DNA from: Bacteroidota bacterium
GTDB taxonomy: Bacteria; Bacteroidota; Bacteroidia; B-17B0; Aurantibacillaceae
Length of the DNA stretch: 64,000 bases
Reading direction: 5' to 3'
Assembly (NCBI GenBank): GCA_018267475.1
Contig: JAFDYI010000028.1
Location: forward strand, 1-64,000
The notes under the pieces were generated by a model. The model did no database searches, was not told where the DNA came from, and was given only the letters and a program-made list of their open reading frames with translations. Numbering within the stretch: the stretch's first letter is position 1; each line of letters starts with the position of its first letter. The translations under genes and the position numbers were made by a program. Shown here piece by piece: positions 41,077 through 56,677 of the stretch.

Positions 41077-42822
41077 CTATGGCCTTCTAAACCCACCGCC
41101 GCCGCCACGAGGTTCGCTAAAACCGCCGCCACCACCAAAACCACCACCGCGAGGCTCGCTAAAACCACCGCCGTTAAAATTGCTTTCCATACGTGGGGTA
41201 GAAAAATTATTTTCAAAACGGGGTTGTTGAGGTGCGGGGGCCGAGTAGTTATTATCGTTACCGCTGTTGTACCAACGCGATGGGCGTGGTGCTTGTTGTT
41301 GTTCAAACTGCTGCTGGTTAAACTGTTGTTGTGGCCTTTCAGGGGCGGGATTGTAGTTGTAGTTGGGGCGTCCCATGTTTTGGTTTTGGTCTGAAAAATT
41401 ATTTTCGTAACGAGGTCTTCCCATTCCTGCATTTCCTCCATTATTATACCCTTGATTGGGTACATTATTTTCATAACGCGGGCGCCCCATGCCTCCATTA
41501 CCTTCGTTATCATACACCGGCACGTTGTTGTAATTATTTAACCTAGGCGGATTGGGGTGATAGTATTCATTATTACGTACCCCGTTATTCCCCATATTAG
41601 GGTTAAACGTATTGTTGCGAGGCATATTCATAGAGCCTGTTTCGTACGAAGACGGATTAAAGGTGCTCATTTTTACTTCTTGAATTTTCACCATATTTTC
41701 TTTAGGAATAGGAGCCTCGCTAAAGCGGTGTATGCTGGTAGGTGCAGCGGCTAAAACCGATAAGTTAGGATCGACACCGTGTGGGTTTACAGGCGAAGCG
41801 CCGCCGCCGGTACCTCCGTTAATTCCAGGGGTTTCTCGATGTCCTATACCGCGTGGGCCACTAACCAAAGGGCCGGTGCCCGTGCCGGAACCGTTGCTCC
41901 CAGTAGTATTGGTTCTGGGGCCGTAATAGGTATTGGTGCTGTTGTAATCATAAGGGTTGTAATAGCCGCCCCCGCCGTACATAGAACTGTAATAGCCCGA
42001 GTAGTAGCCATTCATATAGCCCATATTATACATACCCATACCATATCCCATTCCATAACCCATGCCGTAGCCCATTCCATAAGGGTTGTACATGCCCATT
42101 CCATAACCCATACCTCCCATTCCGTAGCCCATCATGCCGTAAGGGTTGTACATGCCGTAACCCATTCCATATCCCATGCCGTAGCCCATACCCATGCCTC
42201 CCATGCCGTAATACGGGTTGTAGTACGAACTGTAAAAAGCAGATGAGGGCGAATAAAAGCCTCCGCCATAGCCCATGCCCATACCTCCGTTGTAATAATT
42301 ATTGTACATATTGTAGCTGTTATAGCCCATGCCGTAGCCTCCCATACCATAATTACCCATGCCATAATTATTATAGCTGTTGTAATAATTACTGGGGTAG
42401 CTGTTGTAAATGCTATTCCCATACGAGTTTGGATTGCCGCTATACGTATATTGATTGGTATAATAGCTGTCGTAATAACCCGTTCCGTATATAGGGCGTT
42501 GAAAACGATTAACACGAGCCGCATAAGCATTGTCGTAATAATCGTCGTAATTAAATTGCGGTGAACGATAATTGGGGTTCATGCTATCCGCATGGGTGGC
42601 AGCAATTCTTCCCGAATTAGAATTATAATAATTTTGCTGTTGATTTTGGTTTTGTTGCCCACCGCTTTGTTGTTGCGCATAATCAGCACGTGTAGTAGGG
42701 CGTGGATCTTTAGGGTTAAAATACACATCATCGGTCCCGTTTGAGGCTAAGCTGTTAAAGCTAGTGCGGCAACTCATCAATGCTAAAGAAGCAACTGCCG
42801 ACATTAAAAATACTTTTTTCAT
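41077..42822 (-). CDS. Gly/Met/Tyr-rich low-complexity lipoprotein
   Basis: A 581-residue protein that I cannot assign to a family. MKKVFLMSAVASLALMSC ends in a lipobox (L-M-S-C, Cys18), so it is a lipoprotein. Residues about 50-150 are Asn/Tyr/Gln-rich. About 150-300 hold tandem GYGMGMG-type repeats rich in Gly, Tyr, Met and Asn. About 320-360 is a Gly/Ser/Thr-rich linker, and from about 400 to the end there are repeats of the N-x-G/M-G-RPRYENNF type with a Gly/Pro/Phe-rich tail. Such composition suggests a disordered, adhesive or sticky surface protein. Because proteins with repeats of this kind are seldom well studied, the function is open. It precedes the FadL-like gene. Confidence 0.75.
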   Translation of the reverse strand: MKKVFLMSAVASLALMSCRTSFNSLASNGTDDVYFNPKDPRPTTRADYAQQQSGGQQNQNQQQNYYNSNSGRIAATHADSMNPNYRSPQFNYDDYYDNAYAARVNRFQRPIYGTGYYDSYYTNQYTYSGNPNSYGNSIYNSYPSNYYNSYNNYGMGNYGMGGYGMGYNSYNMYNNYYNGGMGMGYGGGFYSPSSAFYSSYYNPYYGMGGMGMGYGMGYGMGYGMYNPYGMMGYGMGGMGYGMGMYNPYGMGYGMGYGMGYGMGMYNMGYMNGYYSGYYSSMYGGGGYYNPYDYNSTNTYYGPRTNTTGSNGSGTGTGPLVSGPRGIGHRETPGINGGTGGGASPVNPHGVDPNLSVLAAAPTSIHRFSEAPIPKENMVKIQEVKMSTFNPSSYETGSMNMPRNNTFNPNMGNNGVRNNEYYHPNPPRLNNYNNVPVYDNEGNGGMGRPRYENNVPNQGYNNGGNAGMGRPRYENNFSDQNQNMGRPNYNYNPAPERPQQQFNQQQFEQQQAPRPSRWYNSGNDNNYSAPAPQQPRFENNFSTPRMESNFNGGGFSEPRGGGFGGGGGFSEPRGGGGGFRRP

Positions 42823-46405: not shown

Positions 46406-46445
46406 GAAAAAGCATTGCCGCTTGAGGTAGTGCTTTTTCTTTTTT
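46406..46445 (+). terminator. Strong rho-independent terminator
   Basis: GAAAAAGCATTGCC pairs with GGTAGTGCTTTTTC (14 bp, two G-U) around a 6-base loop, followed by six T. It ends the 46191 gene and isolates the his operon. The rest of 46446-46560 shows nothing I can name. Confidence 0.85.
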
Positions 46446-46562: not shown

Positions 46563-46592
46563 TTTGCTATAAATAAAATTTACATACATTTG
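46563..46592 (+). promoter_or_regulatory. Promoter of the histidine operon (TTTG / TACATTTG)
   Basis: TTTG at 46563-46566 and TACATTTG at 46585-46592 are separated by 18 bases, slightly short of the usual Bacteroidota spacing. Transcription would begin near 46599, just before the leader peptide ATG at 46607. Confidence 0.65.
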
Positions 46593-46606
46593 CAGGCGAA
46601 AAAGAA

Positions 46607-46669
46607 ATGTACAATCAATTGCATCATACACATCATTACCATACTTGCACTCAAGCGAGCCGAAGATGA
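46607..46669 (+). CDS. hisL: Histidine operon leader peptide
   Basis: A 20-codon frame, MYNQLHHTHHYHTCTQASRR, with five His codons within seven (residues 6, 7, 9, 10, 12), ends in TGA. It lies directly after a consensus promoter and before a terminator and the hisG gene. This is the architecture of a translation-dependent attenuator: ribosome stalling at the His codons when charged tRNA-His is scarce would leave 46649-46657 free for antitermination. The same peptide-codon segment carries that antiterminator strand (Thr-Gln-Ala codons). It is well below the size an ORF finder reports. The peptide itself is not expected to have a function. Confidence 0.85.
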   Translation: MYNQLHHTHHYHTCTQASRR

Positions 46670-46726
46670 TATGATGTAAATCAACCAATATCGAATCCCG
46701 TTTGAGTAAATCAAGCGGGATTTTTT
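46619..46726 (+). promoter_or_regulatory. his attenuator: terminator with mutually exclusive antiterminator
   Basis: Three pairings are visible. The terminator stem AATCCCGTTTGA (46694-46705) pairs with TCAAGCGGGATT (46711-46722), 12 bp with one G-U and a 5-base loop, then T residues to 46726. The antiterminator ACTCAAGCG (46649-46657, inside the leader ORF) pairs with CGTTTGAGT (46699-46707), 9 bp, disrupting the terminator. TTGCATCAT (46619-46627) pairs with ATGATGTAA (46671-46679), and ATCAT (46632-46636) with ATGAT (46666-46670), closing over the His codons. Stalling at the His codons favours antitermination; a ribosome finishing at 46669 covers 46649-46657 and allows termination. Confidence 0.8.
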
Positions 46727-46737
46727 CTTTAAAACCC

Positions 46738-46783
46738 TTTTGGTTTACTCAAATTAAAAACAAAACAAATGAGTAAACTAAAA
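46738..46783 (+). promoter_or_regulatory. Hairpin that would bury the hisG start codon
   Basis: TTTTGGTTTACTCA (46738-46751) is complementary to TGAGTAAACTAAAA (46770-46783), 14 bp with one G-U, enclosing an 18-base A-rich loop that ends at the A of the hisG ATG. The same 46739-46753 strand can alternatively pair with 46701-46715 in the terminator region. A translational switch is inferred, not proven. Confidence 0.5.
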
Positions 46784-47626
46784 ATAGCCATTCAAAAGAA
46801 TGGGAGATTAAGCGAAAACTCGCTAGAGCTATTGAAAAATTGTGGAATTATTTTTCAAAATGGAGGAGGAAAACTAATTGCCGAAGCTCACAACTTCCCA
46901 ATAGAAATACTGTTTCTAAGGGACGACGATATTCCTCAATATGTGGAGCAAGGAATTGCCGATGTGGGAATTATTGGCGAAAATGTGTTGGTTGAAAGTC
47001 AAAAAACAATTCCTGTTGTTGAAAAATTAGGTTTTTCTACCTGCCGTTTGAGTTTGGCTATCCCAAAAAACATTACTTATTCAGGATTAACGTATTTCAA
47101 CAACAAGCGTGTCGCCACATCTTATCCCAATATCTTATCCCATTTTTTTCAATCTCAAAAAATCAACGCGAGCATTGAAGTGATATCGGGAAGCGTGGAG
47201 ATTGCCACAGGGGTTGGTTTAGCCGATGCTATTTGTGATATTGTAAGCAGCGGAAGCACCTTGTTATCAAATGGATTGAAAGAAGTAGAAAAAGTTTTCT
47301 TTAGCCAAGCGGTGTTAGTGGCTAAGGCTCTTATGTCTCCAGAAAAACAAAACATATTAGAACGCTTAATCTTCCGAATTCGTGCGGTTCGTAGCGCAAA
47401 AGAAAACAAATACATTTTATTAAATGCGCCCAACAAAAAGCTAAAAAAAATACAAAAAATTTTACCCGGCATGAATAGCCCGACTATTTTGCCTTTAGCC
47501 CAAAAAGGTTGGAGTAGCCTACACTCTGTTATTCGTGAGGATACCTTTTGGGACGTAATTGATGAATTAAAATTAGCCGGTGCTGAAGGAATTTTAATCA
47601 TTCCTATAGAGAAGATGATTGTATAG
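46769..47626 (+). CDS. hisG: ATP phosphoribosyltransferase (long form)
   Basis: Commits ATP and PRPP to histidine synthesis; the usual feedback target of histidine. The 285 residues include the long-form catalytic domains (IQKNGRLSENSLELL opening; PRPP-binding ATGVGLADAICDIVSSGSTL) and a C-terminal PII-like regulatory domain from about 210, so HisZ is not needed. Its start lies within a predicted hairpin and 43 bases after the attenuator's T-tract. It is the first structural gene of the operon. Confidence 0.97.
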   Translation: MSKLKIAIQKNGRLSENSLELLKNCGIIFQNGGGKLIAEAHNFPIEILFLRDDDIPQYVEQGIADVGIIGENVLVESQKTIPVVEKLGFSTCRLSLAIPKNITYSGLTYFNNKRVATSYPNILSHFFQSQKINASIEVISGSVEIATGVGLADAICDIVSSGSTLLSNGLKEVEKVFFSQAVLVAKALMSPEKQNILERLIFRIRAVRSAKENKYILLNAPNKKLKKIQKILPGMNSPTILPLAQKGWSSLHSVIREDTFWDVIDELKLAGAEGILIIPIEKMIV

Positions 47627-47651
47627 AAAAATGTATTTTATAAAAAACAAA

Positions 47652-48941
47652 ATGAAAAAAATAATAAAACCACCCACTGATGCTTGGGAAAATATATGCA
47701 GGCGGCCAACCCTTATTTCAGAACAATTGGACGATAAAGTACAGGCTATATTAAAAGAAGTAGCGCAATCAAAAGATGCCGCGCTTCGTCAATTCGCTTT
47801 GCAGTTTAATCAGGCTTCGCTAACCGAGTTAAAAGTTAGTGAATCGGAAATGGAAGAGGCAAGACAACAAATAACAGATGAATTGAAACAGGCAATACAA
47901 GTGGCTGCCGTTAATATTGAACGCTTTCACACAACTCAAAAAACGAGTGAAGAAAAAGTGGAAACAACACCCGGCGTTATTTGCTGGAGAAAAGCGGTAG
48001 CTATTGAAACAGTAGGATTGTACATTCCCGGAGGCTCAGCCCCTTTATTTTCAACCATTTTAATGCTAGCAATACCCGCTAAAATTGCCGGGTGCAAACA
48101 AATTGTATTATGCACACCGTGTGGCGAAAACGGAAAAATAAATCCTGTAGTTTTATTTACAGCTTCTTATTTAGGGATTACCGAAATTTATAAAGTAGGC
48201 GGCGCTCAAGCCATTGCCGCAATGGCTTATGGGACAGAGAGCATTAAAAAAGTAGATAAAATTTTTGGACCCGGCAATCAATTTGTAACCAAGGCAAAAG
48301 AATTGGTACAAAAATCAGGAATGGCCATTGATTTACCCGCCGGGCCGAGCGAAGTTTTAATTTTAGCGGATAGTCAAGCCGATGCTGATTTTGTAGCTGC
48401 CGACTTGCTTTCGCAGGCAGAACACGGCCCTGATAGCCAAGTAGTTCTTGTTACAAACGATATGCGTTTGATTGACCACGTAACTATTGCTTTAGCGAAA
48501 CAATTAAAAACATTACCCAGACAACTAATGGCTCAAAAAGCCTTAGAAAATAGTTTTGTTGTTTATTTTGAAAGTATTGAAGAGTGTATTGAGTTTAGCA
48601 ATGTATATGCTCCCGAGCACTTAATTTTAGCGATACAAAATGCCGATAGCTTGGTAAATGCTGTTCAAAATGCGGGCTCTGTTTTCTTAGGCAACTATTC
48701 GTGCGAAAGCGCCGGGGATTACGCCAGTGGAACCAATCACACCTTGCCAACAAATGGCTATGCACGCAGTTACAGCGGTGTTTCTTTAGATAGTTTTACG
48801 AAAAAAATCACTTTTCAAAAGTTGTCTTCCGAAGGAATTTTGAATTTAGGGCCAACCATTGAGTTAATGGCAGAGGCGGAACAATTATGGGCTCATAAAA
48901 ATGCCGTTACCATTCGTTTAAATAAATTAAAAAACAAGTAA
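47652..48941 (+). CDS. hisD: Histidinol dehydrogenase
   Basis: The last enzyme of histidine synthesis: a Zn and NAD dehydrogenase that oxidises histidinol twice to histidine. From ATG 47652 it has 429 residues, the usual length, opening MKKIIKPPTDAW. The family pattern is complete: VGLYIPGGSAPLFSTILMLA, GGAQAIAAMAYGTESI, KIFGPGNQFVTKAK, and the Zn ligand region LLSQAEHGPDSQV. The frame is open to 47619 but those 11 extra codons overlap hisG. It follows hisG by 25 bases. Confidence 0.97.
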   Translation: MKKIIKPPTDAWENICRRPTLISEQLDDKVQAILKEVAQSKDAALRQFALQFNQASLTELKVSESEMEEARQQITDELKQAIQVAAVNIERFHTTQKTSEEKVETTPGVICWRKAVAIETVGLYIPGGSAPLFSTILMLAIPAKIAGCKQIVLCTPCGENGKINPVVLFTASYLGITEIYKVGGAQAIAAMAYGTESIKKVDKIFGPGNQFVTKAKELVQKSGMAIDLPAGPSEVLILADSQADADFVAADLLSQAEHGPDSQVVLVTNDMRLIDHVTIALAKQLKTLPRQLMAQKALENSFVVYFESIEECIEFSNVYAPEHLILAIQNADSLVNAVQNAGSVFLGNYSCESAGDYASGTNHTLPTNGYARSYSGVSLDSFTKKITFQKLSSEGILNLGPTIELMAEAEQLWAHKNAVTIRLNKLKNK

Positions 48942-48942
48942 G

Positions 48943-49968
48943 ATGATTCAAAATTTAGTTCGTAAAAACATAGTAAACCTTCAGCCGTACTCAAGTGCAA
49001 GGGAAGATTTTACCGGTTCAGAAGGCGTTTTTTTAGATGCAAACGAAAATCCTTTTGGAACGTACAACCGCTATCCGGATCCATATCAAAAACAATTAAA
49101 AGAAAAATTAGCACAGATAAAGGGTTGCCAAGCCAGTCAAATTTTTATTGGAAACGGCAGCGATGAGGTGATTGATTTAGCCTTTCGTATTTTTTGTAAT
49201 CCAAAAAAAGACAAAGCCTTAATTTTTACTCCAACGTATGGAATGTATGAGGTTTCGGCCAATATCAACGAAGTAGAATTAATTAAAGTTCCTTTAACGG
49301 TAGATTTTCAGTTGGATATGATGGCCCTAAAACCGCATTTATCAGATGAATCTATCAAAGTACTATTTCTGTGCTCCCCTAATAATCCAACGGGCAATAG
49401 CATTCCGATAACAGAGATAGAATATATTCTGAAAAATTTTAAAGGAGTGGTTGTTTTAGACGAAGCGTATATTGATTTTTCCCAACAAGATTCTTTTTTA
49501 AGTCGATTAGATGAATTTCAAAACTTAATCATCAGTCAGACCTTAAGCAAAGCCTGGGGCTTAGCCGGCTTGCGTTTAGGATTGGCATTTATGAACGCAG
49601 AAATTTTACATTTTTACAACAAAGTAAAAGCGCCTTATAACGTTAGTACAATCAATCAAGAAACTGCCCTGCAAGCATTATGTAATTATTCTGATTTTAA
49701 ATACAAAGTAGCCCTAATCATAGAGGAACGCACCAAATTGATTCAGCTATTAGAAACGGTACCGATCATTCTGAAAATATACCCAACAGATGCTAATTTT
49801 ATCTTAATAAAAGTGCATGATGCTAACGAATTGTATCAAAAACTGGTGCGCGAACAAGTGATTGTTCGCAACCGAAATTCAGTAATTAAAAACACCTTAC
49901 GCATTACGGTAGGGACAAAAGAAGAGAACGAAAAACTAATAAAATTTTTTAACCATTACAGCAAATAA
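48943..49968 (+). CDS. hisC: Histidinol-phosphate aminotransferase
   Basis: A fold-type I PLP enzyme that transfers the amino group to imidazole acetol phosphate. The 341 residues have DANENPFGTYNRYPDPYQ at about 33-50 and CSPNNPTGN near 140. The Schiff-base lysine is in SQTLSKAWGLAGLRLG. Final strands match HisC. It starts 1 base after hisD. Its relatives also act on other aromatic amino donors, but the operon context settles histidine. Confidence 0.97.
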   Translation: MIQNLVRKNIVNLQPYSSAREDFTGSEGVFLDANENPFGTYNRYPDPYQKQLKEKLAQIKGCQASQIFIGNGSDEVIDLAFRIFCNPKKDKALIFTPTYGMYEVSANINEVELIKVPLTVDFQLDMMALKPHLSDESIKVLFLCSPNNPTGNSIPITEIEYILKNFKGVVVLDEAYIDFSQQDSFLSRLDEFQNLIISQTLSKAWGLAGLRLGLAFMNAEILHFYNKVKAPYNVSTINQETALQALCNYSDFKYKVALIIEERTKLIQLLETVPIILKIYPTDANFILIKVHDANELYQKLVREQVIVRNRNSVIKNTLRITVGTKEENEKLIKFFNHYSK

Positions 49969-49971
49969 AAA

Positions 49972-51066
49972 ATGAAAAAGAAAGTGTTATTTATTGACCG
50001 TGACGGAACCTTAATCGTGGAACCGCCTATTGATTTTCAGGTGGATAGTTTGGATAAATTGGAATTTTATCCGGGTGTTTTTCAAAATTTAGCGCAAATA
50101 GTAAAAGAGCTGGATTATGAATTGGTAATCGTAACAAATCAAGATGGGTTAGGCACCGATTCTTTTCCCGAAGATGCGTTTTGGCCGGCTCACAATAAAA
50201 TGTTGCAAGCATTCAAAAATGAAGGGATTGAATTTTCGGATATTTTAATTGATCGTTCGTTTGAACGAGAAAATAAGCCAACACGAAAACCCAATATTGG
50301 CATGATGGGGAAATACATTCATGGAAACTATGATTTAGCAAATTCGTATGTGATTGGCGACCGTAAAACAGACGTGCAATTAGCAACTAATTTGGGCGCA
50401 AAGGCAATACTCATCAGCGATGAAGCTATGAGCAGTGCTGCCTTAACAACAAAAAACTGGAATGAAATTTTTCAATTCTTAAAAGCAGCCCCGCGAATTG
50501 GATCAGCAAAACGCATAACAAAAGAAACCGATGTTTTTGTGGAAGTAAATTTAGATGGATGCGGACAAAGTTTTTTAAGTACCGGCATTCCGTTTTTTGA
50601 CCACATGTTACAGCAAATAGCTAAACACAGCAATATAGATTTAACCATTCGTGTAAAAGGCGATTTAGAAATAGATGAGCACCACACTATTGAAGATACG
50701 GCTTTGGCATTAGGCGATGCTTTTTTACAAGCATTGGGAACAAAAAAAGCTATTGAGCGCTACGGTTTTTTACTACCAATGGACGATTGTTTAGCACAAG
50801 TTGCTATTGATTTTGGCGGCCGTCCATGGCTGGTTTGGGAAGCTGATTTTACACGAGAAAAAATAGGCGATATGCCCACCGAAATGTTTATTCATTTTTT
50901 CAAATCATTTTCCGACCAAGCAAAATGCAACCTAAACATAAAAGCCGAAGGAGAAAACGAGCACCACAAGATTGAGGCTATTTTTAAAGCTTTCGCTAAA
51001 GCCATTCGAATGGCTATAAATAAAACAAATAATTACTCTTTGCCAAGCACAAAAGGGGTTCTTTAA
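49972..51066 (+). CDS. hisB: Bifunctional histidinol phosphatase / imidazoleglycerol-phosphate dehydratase
   Basis: A fused enzyme of 364 residues. Residues about 1-165 are a HAD phosphatase ([13 protein letters not shown]; second Asp in the DRD motif) that makes histidinol. Residues 180 to the end are the manganese dehydratase with [17 protein letters not shown] and [16 protein letters not shown], repeated in [19 protein letters not shown]. The two-domain form is usual in enterics and Bacteroidota. It follows hisC by 3 bases. Confidence 0.97.
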
Positions 51067-51085
51067 ATTCTAACCATTATATTAA

Positions 51086-51664
51086 ATGATTGCCATATTA
51101 AAATACAATGCCGGAAATGCAACATCGGTAGCTAATGCAATTAAAAAGATAGGCTACGAAGTGCTTATTACAGACCATAAAGAAGCGTTGCAAAAAGCAG
51201 ATAAAGTAATTTTTCCCGGGGCGGGTGAAGCTCGTTCAGCTATGAATTATTTAAACAAAACAGGTTTAGACCAAATAATTATTTCCTTAACGCAGCCCGT
51301 ATTGGGAATTTGTTTAGGCATGCAATTATTATGTTCGCATTCGGAAGAGCGCAATACACCTTGTTTGGGTATTTTTCCAGCAAAGGTGCGATTATTCCCT
51401 CCCAAAGATATTGTCCCTCATACCGGTTGGAACACTTTATCAAATACGGACGGAGTACTTTTTAAGGATTTGCAAAAAGAAAGCGATTGTTATTTTGTGC
51501 ACAGTTATTACGCGGAATTATGCGAGAACACAGTAGCAACATGCGATTATATTTTGCCCTATAGTGTTGCCTTGCAAAAAGACAATTTCTACGCAGTTCA
51601 GTTTCACCCAGAAAAGTCTGGAAGTGTAGGAATGAAAATTTTACAAAACTTTTTAGCATTATGA
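51086..51664 (+). CDS. hisH: Imidazole glycerol phosphate synthase subunit HisH
   Basis: The glutaminase partner of HisF. The 192 residues have the class I GATase triad: nucleophile Cys in GICLGMQLL, and His-Glu in VQFHPEKSG. The preceding [12 protein letters not shown] is the oxyanion loop. The stop overlaps the hisA start as ATGA, giving coupled translation. Confidence 0.97.
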
Positions 51665-52374
51665 GAATTATACCTGCAATAGATATTATAGATGGGAAGT
51701 GTGTCCGCCTATCCAAAGGAGATTATTCCACCCAGAAAACATACAATGAAAACCCATTAGAGGTGGCTATGCAGTTTGAAGATAACGGAATTCAGTATCT
51801 GCATTTAGTTGATTTAGATGGGGCAAAGTCGAAACAAATAGTAAACTATAAAACATTAGAGTTACTAGCATCAAAAACAAATTTAATTATTGATTTTGGA
51901 GGTGGTGTTAAGTCGCAAAAAGAGGTGCTGCTTGCTTTGAGTGCCGGAGCAAATCAAGTAACGGTTGGCAGTGTTGCGGCTCAAAGCCCCGAATTGGCAA
52001 CAGAATGGTTAAAGCAATTTGGTTCTGATAAAATAATATTAGGCGCAGATTGTAAAAACCGAAAAATTGCTACCAACGGTTGGCTTGAAAAGAGTTCGTT
52101 AGATGTGATTGATTTTATTCAATCGTTTGAGGCAAAACAAGCTCAGTATGCCATCGTTACGGATATTGAAAAAGACGGAATGTTGCAAGGGCCTTCTGTT
52201 TCTTTGTATCGCGATATTTTGCGTAAAACAAGCATTCAGCTCATTGCTAGTGGCGGTATAACAACTATAGATGATGTTTTGTTGATGAAAGAAATAGGTT
52301 GCGAAGGAGTCATCATCGGTAAGGCTATTTACGAAGGAACCATTAAATTAAAAGAATTGAGCACATTATGTTAA
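51661..52374 (+). CDS. hisA: ProFAR isomerase HisA
   Basis: A 237-residue (beta/alpha)8 barrel that isomerises ProFAR to PRFAR. The catalytic Asp near the N-terminus is in [18 protein letters not shown], and IDFGGGVKS and LIASGGITT form the phosphate loops. [12 protein letters not shown] holds the second catalytic Asp region. It overlaps hisH by 4 bases and hisF by 7. Confidence 0.97.
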
Positions 52375-53120
52375 AAAAACGCATTATACCCTGTTTAGAT
52401 GTTAAAGATGGAAGAACTGTAAAAGGGGTTCATTTTGAGTCCATCAAAGATGCCGGGGATCCGATAGAATTAGCAAAACGCTATGCCGAAGAGGGCGCTG
52501 ATGAATTGGTTTTTTTAGACATTACGGCAACCTCAGAAAAACGGAAAACGATTACTGAATTGGTAACGAAAGTAGCCGCTGAAATAAACATTCCTTTTAC
52601 CGTTGGAGGAGGAATTAGTAGCTTAGAAGATGCTCAATCAATCATGCAAGCAGGGGCCGATAAAATCAGCATAAACACTTCTGCTATTTTAAATCCAAAA
52701 TTAATTGTGGAAATAGCGAATGAATTTGGAAGTCAATGCGTGGTATTGGCCATAGACACAAAATTGGTTGATGGAGAGTGGATGGTTTTCCGCAACGGAG
52801 GCAAAACGGCAACCTCATTAAAGGCAGTAGCTTGGGCAGCGGAAGGAGTTCGCTTAGGAGCAGGCGAAATTTTATTAACTTCTATGAACCACGACGGCAC
52901 AAAATCCGGCTTTGCTTTAGATATTACACAAGCCGTTTCAACATCGGTAAACGTTCCTGTAATCGCTTCCGGGGGCGCAGGGCTAAAGGAGCACTTTTTA
53001 GATGTTTTTAGTCAAACTAAAGCTACCGGAGCGTTGGCAGCCAGTGTGTTTCACTATCAGCAAATTACCATTAAAGATTTAAAAAAGTATTTAAAAGAAA
53101 ACAAAATTTCAATAAGATAA
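52368..53120 (+). CDS. hisF: Imidazole glycerol phosphate synthase subunit HisF
   Basis: The cyclase barrel that uses ammonia from HisH to form imidazole glycerol phosphate and AICAR. The 250 residues open with [19 protein letters not shown], with catalytic Asp11, and carry [15 protein letters not shown] and the second Asp in [12 protein letters not shown]. It overlaps hisA by 7 and hisIE by 1 base. Confidence 0.97.
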
Positions 53121-53704
53121 TGAACATCAATTTTACCAAAGGCGAAGGCTTAGTTCCTGTCATCATTCAAGACGAAACAAGCATGAAAATACTTATGTTG
53201 GGATACATGAACGAAGAAGCCTATCAACAAACTGTAGCAGAAAAAAAAGTAACCTTTTTTAGTCGTAGTAAAAACCGGTTGTGGACAAAAGGAGAAACAT
53301 CGGGTCATTTTTTATGGGTTCGAGATATTTGCTTAGATTGCGATAACGACACCCTGCTCATTACCGTAAAAGCAGATGGACCAACGTGCCACACAGGCGC
53401 GGTTTCTTGTTTTAACACAACATCTGACAAAGGATTTATTTATCAATTAGAGCGCACCATTCATCAGCGTATTGATGATGATGTAATAGATTCATACACA
53501 AACAGCTTGTACAAAAAGGGCATTAACAAAGTAGCTCAAAAAGTAGGTGAAGAAGCGGTAGAAGTAATCATTGAAGCAAAAGATAATAATAACGAGCTTT
53601 TTTTAAATGAGTCGGCAGATTTATTGTATCACTACTTAATTCTTCTAAAAGCAAAAGGATTTAGCCTAGAAGATGTAGAGGCTATTTTGAAAAAAAGAAC
53701 TTAA
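53120..53704 (+). CDS. hisIE: Bifunctional phosphoribosyl-AMP cyclohydrolase / phosphoribosyl-ATP pyrophosphatase
   Basis: Steps two and three of histidine synthesis in one protein of 194 residues. The HisI half has MLGYMNEEAYQQT and WTKGETSGH, plus the Zn cluster DCDNDTLL and GPTCHTGAVSCF. The HisE half has KVGEEAVEVIIEAK and ESADLLYHYLILL. The fusion is usual in Bacteroidota. It ends the his operon; the next gene starts 126 bases later after a small unknown region. Confidence 0.97.
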   Translation: MNINFTKGEGLVPVIIQDETSMKILMLGYMNEEAYQQTVAEKKVTFFSRSKNRLWTKGETSGHFLWVRDICLDCDNDTLLITVKADGPTCHTGAVSCFNTTSDKGFIYQLERTIHQRIDDDVIDSYTNSLYKKGINKVAQKVGEEAVEVIIEAKDNNNELFLNESADLLYHYLILLKAKGFSLEDVEAILKKRT

Positions 53705-54045: not shown

Positions 54046-54912
54046 ATGTTCGTAGATACAAATACCTTTAAATTATTGCGCATTCCTTTCTCATTTTTGC
54101 TGATGCCTTTATTTTTATTTGCTTTTAGCCAGGCAGAATCGATTCATTTACGCAGCGCACTATGGTCGTTTAGCATCATACATTTATTGGTATATCCTGC
54201 CAGCAACGGCTACAACAGTTATATAGACAGAGACGAAACACCTATAGGGGGCTTAGAAAAACCACCGCTGCCTACTACCAATTTATTTTTTGCTACCTTA
54301 TTTTTAGATATCTGTGCGCTCTTGCTTTCTTTTTTTTGTGTAAACAGGTTGTTTGCTTTATGTGTTTTGTTGTATATCATAGCGTCCAGGGCTTATAGCT
54401 CTAAACAAATACGTTTAAAAAAACATCCTTTTGCCGGTTTTTTTACGGTCGTTTTTTTTCAAGGAGCCTTTACTTTTTATATGTCATACATAGGTATTGC
54501 GGCATATCCTCTTGAATTAAATAAACTCAATATAATTTTACTGTTAGGCTGCTCTCTGCAAATAGCAGGTGCCTACCCGCTTACGCAAATATACCAACAT
54601 CAACAAGACCTAAAAGATGGGATAACAACCATCAGCTATAAATTGGGTTATGTCGGCACTTTTATTTTTACAGCCGGCATGTTTGTATTGTGCAATCTCT
54701 GTTATTTTCTGTACTTCAATAGCCTTAACTGGCTCTCCCCTTTTTATATCATACAACTGTTTTTTGCGCCCATTGTGGCATACTTTGCGTATTGGTTTTT
54801 TCTTGTTTTAAAGAACAAAAACGAAGCCAACTTCAAAAACACCATGCGTATGAATATAATAGCCGCAACCAGTATGAATATTTGTTTTACAAGCCTTTTC
54901 TTTATTAAATAG
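54046..54912 (+). CDS. UbiA-family prenyltransferase
   Basis: A 288-residue inner-membrane protein with about eight or nine helices and both Asp-rich UbiA sites. The first is NGYNSYIDRDE (Asn57, Asp61, Asp63); the second is YQHQQDLKDGITTIS near 183-197 (Asp188 and Asp191), close to the COQ2/UbiA pattern YxHQDxxDD. UbiA enzymes attach isoprenyl chains to aromatic acceptors. The stop abuts the next ATG (TAGATG) with no gap, so it is coupled to the polyketide synthase gene. The acceptor is probably the polyketide product, by inference. Confidence 0.9.
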   Translation: MFVDTNTFKLLRIPFSFLLMPLFLFAFSQAESIHLRSALWSFSIIHLLVYPASNGYNSYIDRDETPIGGLEKPPLPTTNLFFATLFLDICALLLSFFCVNRLFALCVLLYIIASRAYSSKQIRLKKHPFAGFFTVVFFQGAFTFYMSYIGIAAYPLELNKLNIILLLGCSLQIAGAYPLTQIYQHQQDLKDGITTISYKLGYVGTFIFTAGMFVLCNLCYFLYFNSLNWLSPFYIIQLFFAPIVAYFAYWFFLVLKNKNEANFKNTMRMNIIAATSMNICFTSLFFIK

Positions 54913-56001
54913 ATGAGTTATATCACCGCTATAGAAACTGCAGTGCCTTTATATGCACATTCGCAAGAAAGTTTTGTCCGCTTTTTATCTAATGCCACTA
55001 ATGATGATGCCGTAAAAAGAAAGATAAACATTATTGCAAAAAAAACGGGCATACAAGAACGATATTCGGTACTAAAAGATTACAGCTCGGCACCCGAAGA
55101 TTTTATTTTTTACGCTAAAAACAAGCACCTGGAGCCGCAGCCTTCACTTTCTGAAAGAATGACTGTCTTTAGAGAAGGAGCCTTACCCCTATCCTTACAG
55201 GCTGTAAAAAAAATAAAAAAAATAGACGAAATAAAAAAACAGATTAGTCACGTTATTACCGTTACCTGCACCGGACTTTTTGCGCCCGGTTTAGATGTAG
55301 ATTTAATTCATACCCTAAATCTTAACCCCGACATAAGTAGAATAGGCATCAACTTTATGGGTTGTAATGCCGCTATTCTGGCATTAAAACATGCTGATGC
55401 TATTTGCAAAAGCAACAGCGATGCCTTGGTGTTAATTGTTTGCACAGAATTATGCACGCTGCATTTTCAAAAAAAATATACCGACGATTATATTCTTTCT
55501 AATTTATTATTTGGTGATGGGGCGGCTGCTGTTTTAGTGAGTGGAAAAAAGCCGGAAAATCATTCTGATAAGATGCTGCAAATACAAACCTTCAATTCGC
55601 ACTTAGTGAAAAAAGGGTATGCTGATATGGCTTGGCAAACCAGTGAAAGCGGTTTTTTAATGAACCTTACCTCCTACGTTGCCTTACTTATAAAAGAAAA
55701 CATAAAAGGAGTATTTGAAAACCTACACATCAACCCTGAAAACATTAAGCATTGGGCTGTGCACCCCGGTGGAAAAAAAATAATAGACGACTTTTTTACC
55801 GCGTTAAATTTAGAAAATGAAAAGGCAAAGCACTCGTACGAAGTGCTAAAAAAGTACGGCAACATGTCCTCGCCAACAGTCTTATTTGTGCTTAAAGAAA
55901 TGCTACAACAAAACACGGGCGCCAACGCCGGAGAAACCGTTTTTGCCGCAGCCTTCGGGCCCGGTTTAAGCATAGAAACCATGCAAGCCGTTTATGCTTA
56001 A
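54913..56001 (+). CDS. Type III polyketide synthase
   Basis: A 362-residue chalcone/stilbene-synthase-like homodimeric enzyme that condenses a starter acyl-CoA with malonyl-CoA and cyclises the chain to a resorcinol, phloroglucinol or pyrone. The Cys-His-Asn triad is complete: Cys151 in NFMGCNAAILALK, His284 in WAVHPGGKKII and Asn317 in YGNMSSPTVLFVL. CTGLFAPGLD and FGDGAAAVLVSG are also typical. Starter and product cannot be read from this alone. Its 3' end overlaps the methyltransferase by 8 bases. Confidence 0.95.
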   Translation: MSYITAIETAVPLYAHSQESFVRFLSNATNDDAVKRKINIIAKKTGIQERYSVLKDYSSAPEDFIFYAKNKHLEPQPSLSERMTVFREGALPLSLQAVKKIKKIDEIKKQISHVITVTCTGLFAPGLDVDLIHTLNLNPDISRIGINFMGCNAAILALKHADAICKSNSDALVLIVCTELCTLHFQKKYTDDYILSNLLFGDGAAAVLVSGKKPENHSDKMLQIQTFNSHLVKKGYADMAWQTSESGFLMNLTSYVALLIKENIKGVFENLHINPENIKHWAVHPGGKKIIDDFFTALNLENEKAKHSYEVLKKYGNMSSPTVLFVLKEMLQQNTGANAGETVFAAAFGPGLSIETMQAVYA

Positions 56002-56677
56002 ACAGCGCAGCATACAAAAAGAATTATTAGATGCCGATGACATACCGGAGGCTGACTTATATCAAAACCTAAAAGAGCTTAATACCATCAACAAACTGTT
56101 AGGAGGCTACGGTATTACTTTTTCTGCTTTAAATAAAGTTTGTAAAAAAAACCAATCTTATACTTTAGTAGATATTGGCTGTGGGGGTGGGCACACGCTC
56201 AAACAAATTGATAATTGGGCAAAAAAAAATAACCAAAAAGTTACACTATACGGCATAGATATTAAATCGGTATGCATACAATATGCTAAAAAAAATGCGC
56301 CCCAACTCGGTTTTATTTGCGACGATTACAAAAACACTTTTTTACATCTGCCGCAAGCAAATATTATACACGCTTGCTTATTTTGTCATCACCTGCAAGA
56401 AGATGAGTTGATAAAACTGATACAATTTTGTTTAAGAAACAAAGCCACTCTTATCATCAACGACTTAGAACGAAACCCTTTTGCCTATTATGCTATAAAA
56501 ATACTTGCTCGCCTTTTTTCCAAATCATACTTAGTAAAAAACGACGCTCCTTTATCCGTAGCACGAGGGTTTAAAACCCATGAGTGGCACCTTATTTTAG
56601 AAAAAGCCGGAGCGAAACAATATTCTGTTACAAAAAAATGGGCTTTTAGACATGAAATACTCGTGCATGCAACATAA
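55994..56677 (+). CDS. SAM-dependent methyltransferase of the polyketide cluster
   Basis: A 227-residue class I methyltransferase. The SAM site is VDIGCGGGHTLKQI at about 54-67, with the acidic residue after the second strand in YGIDIKSV, and the motif IIHACLFCHHL follows. Methylation of a hydroxyl or ring carbon of the polyketide is likely. The srsB methyltransferase of Streptomyces, next to a type III PKS, methylates alkylresorcinols, a good parallel though not proof. It overlaps the PKS by 8 bases and the FAD gene by 26. Confidence 0.9.
   Translation: MLKQRSIQKELLDADDIPEADLYQNLKELNTINKLLGGYGITFSALNKVCKKNQSYTLVDIGCGGGHTLKQIDNWAKKNNQKVTLYGIDIKSVCIQYAKKNAPQLGFICDDYKNTFLHLPQANIIHACLFCHHLQEDELIKLIQFCLRNKATLIINDLERNPFAYYAIKILARLFSKSYLVKNDAPLSVARGFKTHEWHLILEKAGAKQYSVTKKWAFRHEILVHAT

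Follow-up and report, generated by a model that had tools for sequence, protein, structure and literature searches.

Background

Leader-peptide attenuation is a textbook principle from Escherichia coli, and the leader of the enteric his operon, hisL, carries seven His codons in a row. In bacilli, a His-codon leader has been described upstream of hisS/hisZ paralogues, in a 2010 paper according to which, its own bacilli case apart, such systems had been demonstrated in Proteobacteria and Actinobacteria alone (PMC2965389). Within the Bacteroidota, short ORFs reminiscent of leader peptides are known from Bacteroides thetaiotaomicron (PMC7366714), and a study on Flavobacterium psychrophilum reports hints of leader-peptide attenuation before amino-acid operons and, in Flavobacteriaceae, a structured and conserved 5' element ahead of hisG that has no Rfam match (PMC9723704). 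In the open literature, this brief notice is the nearest account for the phylum.

Here, a his operon leader is described from the window, the whole 64,000-nucleotide stretch of DNA that was analysed. Like enteric hisL (Rfam RF00514), it has a run of His codons in a short leader ORF, mutually exclusive RNA strands, and an intrinsic terminator before hisG in an operon for the cognate amino acid. Unlike hisL, its run is interrupted (5 His in 7 codons), its promoter is of the Bacteroidota type and is followed by a short A-rich 5' UTR, its antiterminator strand lies within the last third of the ORF, and its switch sequence classes vary among lineages; the RF00514 covariance model has no match to it, neither at the gathering threshold nor at E<=10. 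The bacilli leader is likewise a His-rich short ORF with a premature terminator, but it controls histidyl-tRNA synthetase-type genes in Firmicutes, whereas the window leader precedes the his operon (PMC2965389). The Flavobacteriaceae hisG element occupies the same position in the same phylum and is very probably the same element; the main text of that study gives no leader sequence, antiterminator, covariation, or range beyond the family (PMC9723704). The first-pass annotation of the window had called the element unannotated and had been unaware of a detailed account in the phylum. The former agrees with the lack of any Rfam, Pfam or NCBIfam match (for the 20-residue leader, a length at which HMMER has low power, in Pfam and NCBIfam); the latter holds in part, since PMC9723704 reports the clues and the hisG element, though no mechanistic detail.

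Leader region of the his operon

The leader and hairpin element lies directly upstream of a complete hisGDCBHAF(IE) operon, identified from ORFs and NCBIfam equivalog models, and the genes downstream are those for the biosynthesis of histidine, the leader's own amino acid. The features are as follows.

46563-46566, plus strand: TTTG, candidate -33 box (sequence; 18-nt spacer to TACATTTG)
46585-46592, plus strand: promoter -7 element TACATTTG (sequence; TAnnTTTG, common before leaders)
46607-46669, plus strand: leader ORF MYNQLHHTHHYHTCTQASRR, 20 sense codons (sequence, conservation)
46619-46680, plus strand: protector hairpin region, strands 1:2 (minimum-energy folds of this sequence only)
46622-46642, plus strand: regulatory His codons (CAT CAT ACA CAT CAT TAC CAT), putative ribosome stall sites
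46649-46657, plus strand: antiterminator strand 2, within the leader ORF (9-bp complementarity to 46699-46707; covariation)
46693-46723, plus strand: intrinsic terminator hairpin, strands 3:4 (13-bp stem, then U tract)
46699-46707, plus strand: switch strand 3, common to antiterminator and terminator
46721-46730, plus strand: terminator U tract TTTTTTCTTT, its first bases overlapping the hairpin 3' arm (sequence)
46769-47626, plus strand: hisG, first gene of the controlled operon (PF01634, TIGR00070)
47619-53704, plus strand: remaining operon, hisD, hisC, hisB, hisH, hisA, hisF and hisIE (ORFs, NCBIfam equivalog matches)

Direct reading bears out the promoter octamer and the 20-codon leader with five His in seven codons that the first-pass annotation had claimed, and the TTTG further upstream is presumably a match to the -33 consensus of Bacteroidota promoters. 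Since a separate terminator-like hairpin (46406-46439) lies upstream, the his promoter appears to begin its own transcription unit. The leader extends from an ATG at 46607-46609 to a TGA at 46667-46669, 99 nt before hisG, with His codons starting at 46622, 46625, 46631, 46634, and 46640 (codons 6, 7, 9, 10, and 12). The same pattern of His codons has 3 matches in the host's own genome compared with 4 for the reversed control pattern; the run alone is therefore no proof, and the weight rests on its position upstream of hisG and on conservation.

Between the leader and hisG is the intrinsic terminator, whose proposed 12-bp stem and T-tract were found as described (46694-46705 with 46711-46722, extended to 13 bp by 46693 with 46723, and followed by TTTTTTCTTT). 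The antiterminator pairs ACTCAAGCG (46649-46657) with CGTTTGAGT (46699-46707) over 9 bp at -12.9 kcal/mol, a complementarity with p = 0.005 against shuffles. It does use the terminator's CGTTTGA strand, as had been noted, at 46699-46705, and TCAAGCG occurs twice, at exactly 46651 and 46711. RNA 46599-46768 folds at -41.5 kcal/mol (z = -6.1), and none of 200 dinucleotide shuffles folds as well. The protector hairpin (1:2) appears in the fold of this sequence, with no consensus helix across 46 relatives. By folding energies the terminator is stronger than the antiterminator at equilibrium, so the switch has to be kinetic.

Conservation across Bacteroidota

Upstream regions of hisG were compared in about 200 genomes (relatives, a phylum-wide sample, and named genomes) spanning Flavobacteriales, Chitinophagaceae, Cytophagales-type families, Bacteroidales, and Saprospiraceae. 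In this sample, which is phylogenetically uneven and includes close relatives, a short ORF with at least 4 His in 8 codons is present in 167/200 hisG upstream regions (reverse strand 0, shuffles 0.8) and one with at least 5 in 113/200 (reverse strand 0, shuffles 0.0). No other amino acid has a comparable codon run on the coding strand of these 200 regions. Chance as the source of the run was rejected, as shuffles, the reverse strand, and other amino acids all fail to give it. Four loci of one family (f38) that were examined have no His run.

The switch was tested in the 169 loci with both a leader and a terminator-like hairpin, a few of the hairpins being dubious (e.g. L047, L057, L061). In 122 of them, a TAnnTTTG lies no more than 60 nt before the leader start, where shuffles expect 11.3. 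The stretch running from the His codons to the terminator was compared with the terminator 5' arm against dinucleotide shuffles, and strand 2:3 complementarity reached p<=0.05 in 132/169 loci (about 8 expected; median z -2.8); in almost every locus, strand 2 is located at or close to the leader stop codon. The strands fall into two main classes, class A, which includes this window (strand 2 CUCARGCGA, strand 3 CCGUYUGAG), and class B (GGUAAGCC and GGCUUACC, respectively), besides a small class C (GCCGG and CCCCGGC, respectively). Pairing across classes is poor: class A strand 2 pairs at -13.3 kcal/mol within its own class vs -7.8 kcal/mol with class B strand 3.

Covariation was examined in an alignment (A2) of 46 class A sequences. 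Pairs are kept in 94.8% of cells for the antiterminator and 95.1% for the terminator, compared with less than 58% for slid versions, although this figure favours the unslid version because the structure was read from one of the 46 sequences. The covariation scores, which depend less on that choice, exceed those of each of the 500 shuffles and of each slid version. Column 108, in strand 3, is C in one part of the alignment and U in the other, and its partners, column 51 in strand 2 and column 122 in strand 4, follow. Compensatory change is thus present in both rival pairings, with both sides changed in 16/46 sequences for pair 51-108 (2:3) and likewise for pair 108-122 (3:4). The association of A/G with T/C has p = 2e-14, uncorrected for relatedness, and the column-108 label needs about 4 changes on the HisG tree, so that a handful of events, not 16, underlie it. 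The two refuting conditions of the first-pass annotation that sequence comparison can address, lack of a His-codon run and lack of compensatory pairing in related genomes, were thus both decided in favour of the attenuator.

Proposed mechanism

Folding was modelled with and without a ribosome on the leader, with the ribosome edge assumed to lie 12 nt downstream of the first nucleotide of the codon in the A site. With the A site at His codons 6-10 and strand 4 not yet made, the 2:3 helix remains free to form (-15.0 kcal/mol). Strand 2 is already partly covered by a modelled ribosome at codon 12 (A site 46640), which would leave most of the sensing to codons 6-10; once the ribosome is at the stop codon, the terminator is the one helix that can form. 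Among relatives, the 2:3 helix forms before strand 4 in 128/132 loci with a ribosome at the first His codon, in 1/132 with one at the stop, and in 52/132 in untranslated RNA; these 132 loci are those chosen beforehand for significant 2:3 complementarity, and the stop-codon result largely follows in the model because strand 2 adjoins the stop. In silico, then, strand 2 is open while the ribosome is held at the early His codons and occluded once it has reached the stop codon.

The element is in all likelihood a ribosome-mediated transcription attenuator by which the his operon is adjusted to the supply of histidyl-tRNA. From its anatomy we infer the start site, ribosome behaviour, termination efficiency, and histidine response as follows. 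Transcription would start about 8-10 nt before the leader ATG. With ample charged tRNA-His, the ribosome would reach the stop codon and cover 46649-46657, and strands 3 and 4 would form the terminator before hisG. When histidine is scarce, the ribosome would stall at the first His codons and leave strand 2 free; this strand would pair with strand 3 while strand 4 is still unmade, and the polymerase would read through into hisG. If the leader is not translated, the 1:2 hairpin would hide strand 2, making termination the default.

Extended to the relatives, the sequence comparisons suggest that leader-peptide attenuation of histidine synthesis very probably runs through most of the Bacteroidota phylum; the statistics and covariation document it as a general and old device of this phylum. 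The classical model needs tight transcription-translation coupling, an assumption for Bacteroidota, in which most genes are without leading Shine-Dalgarno sites. The element would imply that coupling there is tight enough for classical attenuation, and offers a ready native reporter for measuring it. The alignments obtained could also seed an RNA family, as the element is absent from Rfam.

Leaders without a terminator and alternative readings

In three lineages, the His leader is retained but no terminator can be recognised. The first, family f25, includes most of L215-L244 together with L057, L060, L062, L064, L067, L081, and L082, and is suspected to be Sphingobacteriaceae. Its leaders have a His run, no strong intrinsic terminator, and two conserved hairpins at and after the leader stop: by reading the sequences, the first joins the last His/Arg codons to the stop-codon region, with CACC/GGTG alternating with CGCC/GGCG, and the second is of the GTTTC-TACGT-GAAGC type. 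The hisG start in this family is often TTG or GTG. In a second group (L032, L033, L038, L039, L150, L166, L185), which includes Pontibacter, Marivirga, and Marinigracilibium, the leader peptide ends in HHFHHSS or a variant, and the leader end together with the bases after it forms a hairpin, ATTCCTC-stop-GAGGAAT, that holds the stop codon in its loop and has no convincing terminator after it. Family f44 (L092, L096, L111, L117, L118) has leaders with many His codons and a likely start that is mostly GTG, followed by 60-80 nt of pyrimidine-rich, unstructured RNA with no terminator, and here a Rho-type output is conceivable. We tentatively suggest that the His-codon leader may be an ancestral Bacteroidota sensor, whose output would mostly be a terminator switch (with at least three unrelated switch sequences) and would be terminator-less in f25, the HHFHHSS group, and f44.

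Because some lineages have the leader and no terminator, another output must exist there, and the same could be asked of the window: leader translation might also act on hisG through Rho-dependent termination, mRNA decay, or translational coupling, with the terminator minor. For this locus that is very unlikely, since the window has a strong terminator with a U tract and a covarying antiterminator, and the 99 nt from the ORF stop to hisG are far for reinitiation.

Slightly less likely still is that the short ORF encodes a functional His-rich peptide, e.g. a metal-binding one, and that the hairpin is merely the terminator of that small gene. Such a peptide would fit a His-rich product that is conserved in kind and a terminator directly after it; however, in every locus examined the ORF comes before hisG, and it contains a strand 2 whose complementarity to the terminator 5' strand exceeds that of shuffles. 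The C terminus of the peptide, moreover, is QAS/QAR in class A, and many members of class B end in GKP/GRS. These endings differ by class because the end codons spell strand 2, and they shift in step with the terminator sequence; what they track is therefore the RNA pairing, which is conserved where the peptide is not, and the C terminus would be a by-product of the RNA.

Attenuation by a T-box, a protein (anti)terminator, or another ligand, with incidental His codons, is equally improbable, for although two mutually exclusive helices would suit any antitermination mechanism, the T-box covariance model has no match at the gathering threshold nor at E<=10, no other Rfam cis-regulatory family is found at its gathering threshold and none credible below it, and codons for His and no other amino acid are enriched in 167 of the 200 upstream regions.

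Operon history and genome context

The attenuator class follows the hisG tree: classes A and B need 7 and 5 changes, respectively, where shuffles need 33 and 36. An operon and attenuator that travel together would give this pattern. In the HisG tree, the window's protein falls with Cryomorpha, Kaistella, Paenimyroides, and Myroides (support 100/99). Another part of that tree holds most members of the host's family, along with one species placed in the host genus, and these have class B elements; two other congeners of the host are class A. The operon and attenuator (46607-47626; L001, L008, L011, L020), placed with Flavobacteriales, were likely transferred horizontally, and assembly or binning errors in the metagenome genomes may account for the odd placement.

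The host has the complete his operon, and its genome gives no match for ilvD, trpE, homoserine dehydrogenase, or prephenate dehydratase, the would-be carriers of other amino-acid attenuators; its sole Trp_syntA match is below the cut-off. From this gene content, the host is probably a histidine prototroph that depends on an outside supply of several other amino acids. Elsewhere in the window, a 581-aa ORF on the minus strand (41077-42822) has long GYGMGYGM-type repeats and a lipoprotein-like start, and a row of genes for a UbiA-type prenyltransferase, a type III polyketide synthase, and a methyltransferase lies downstream of the his operon (54046-56677).
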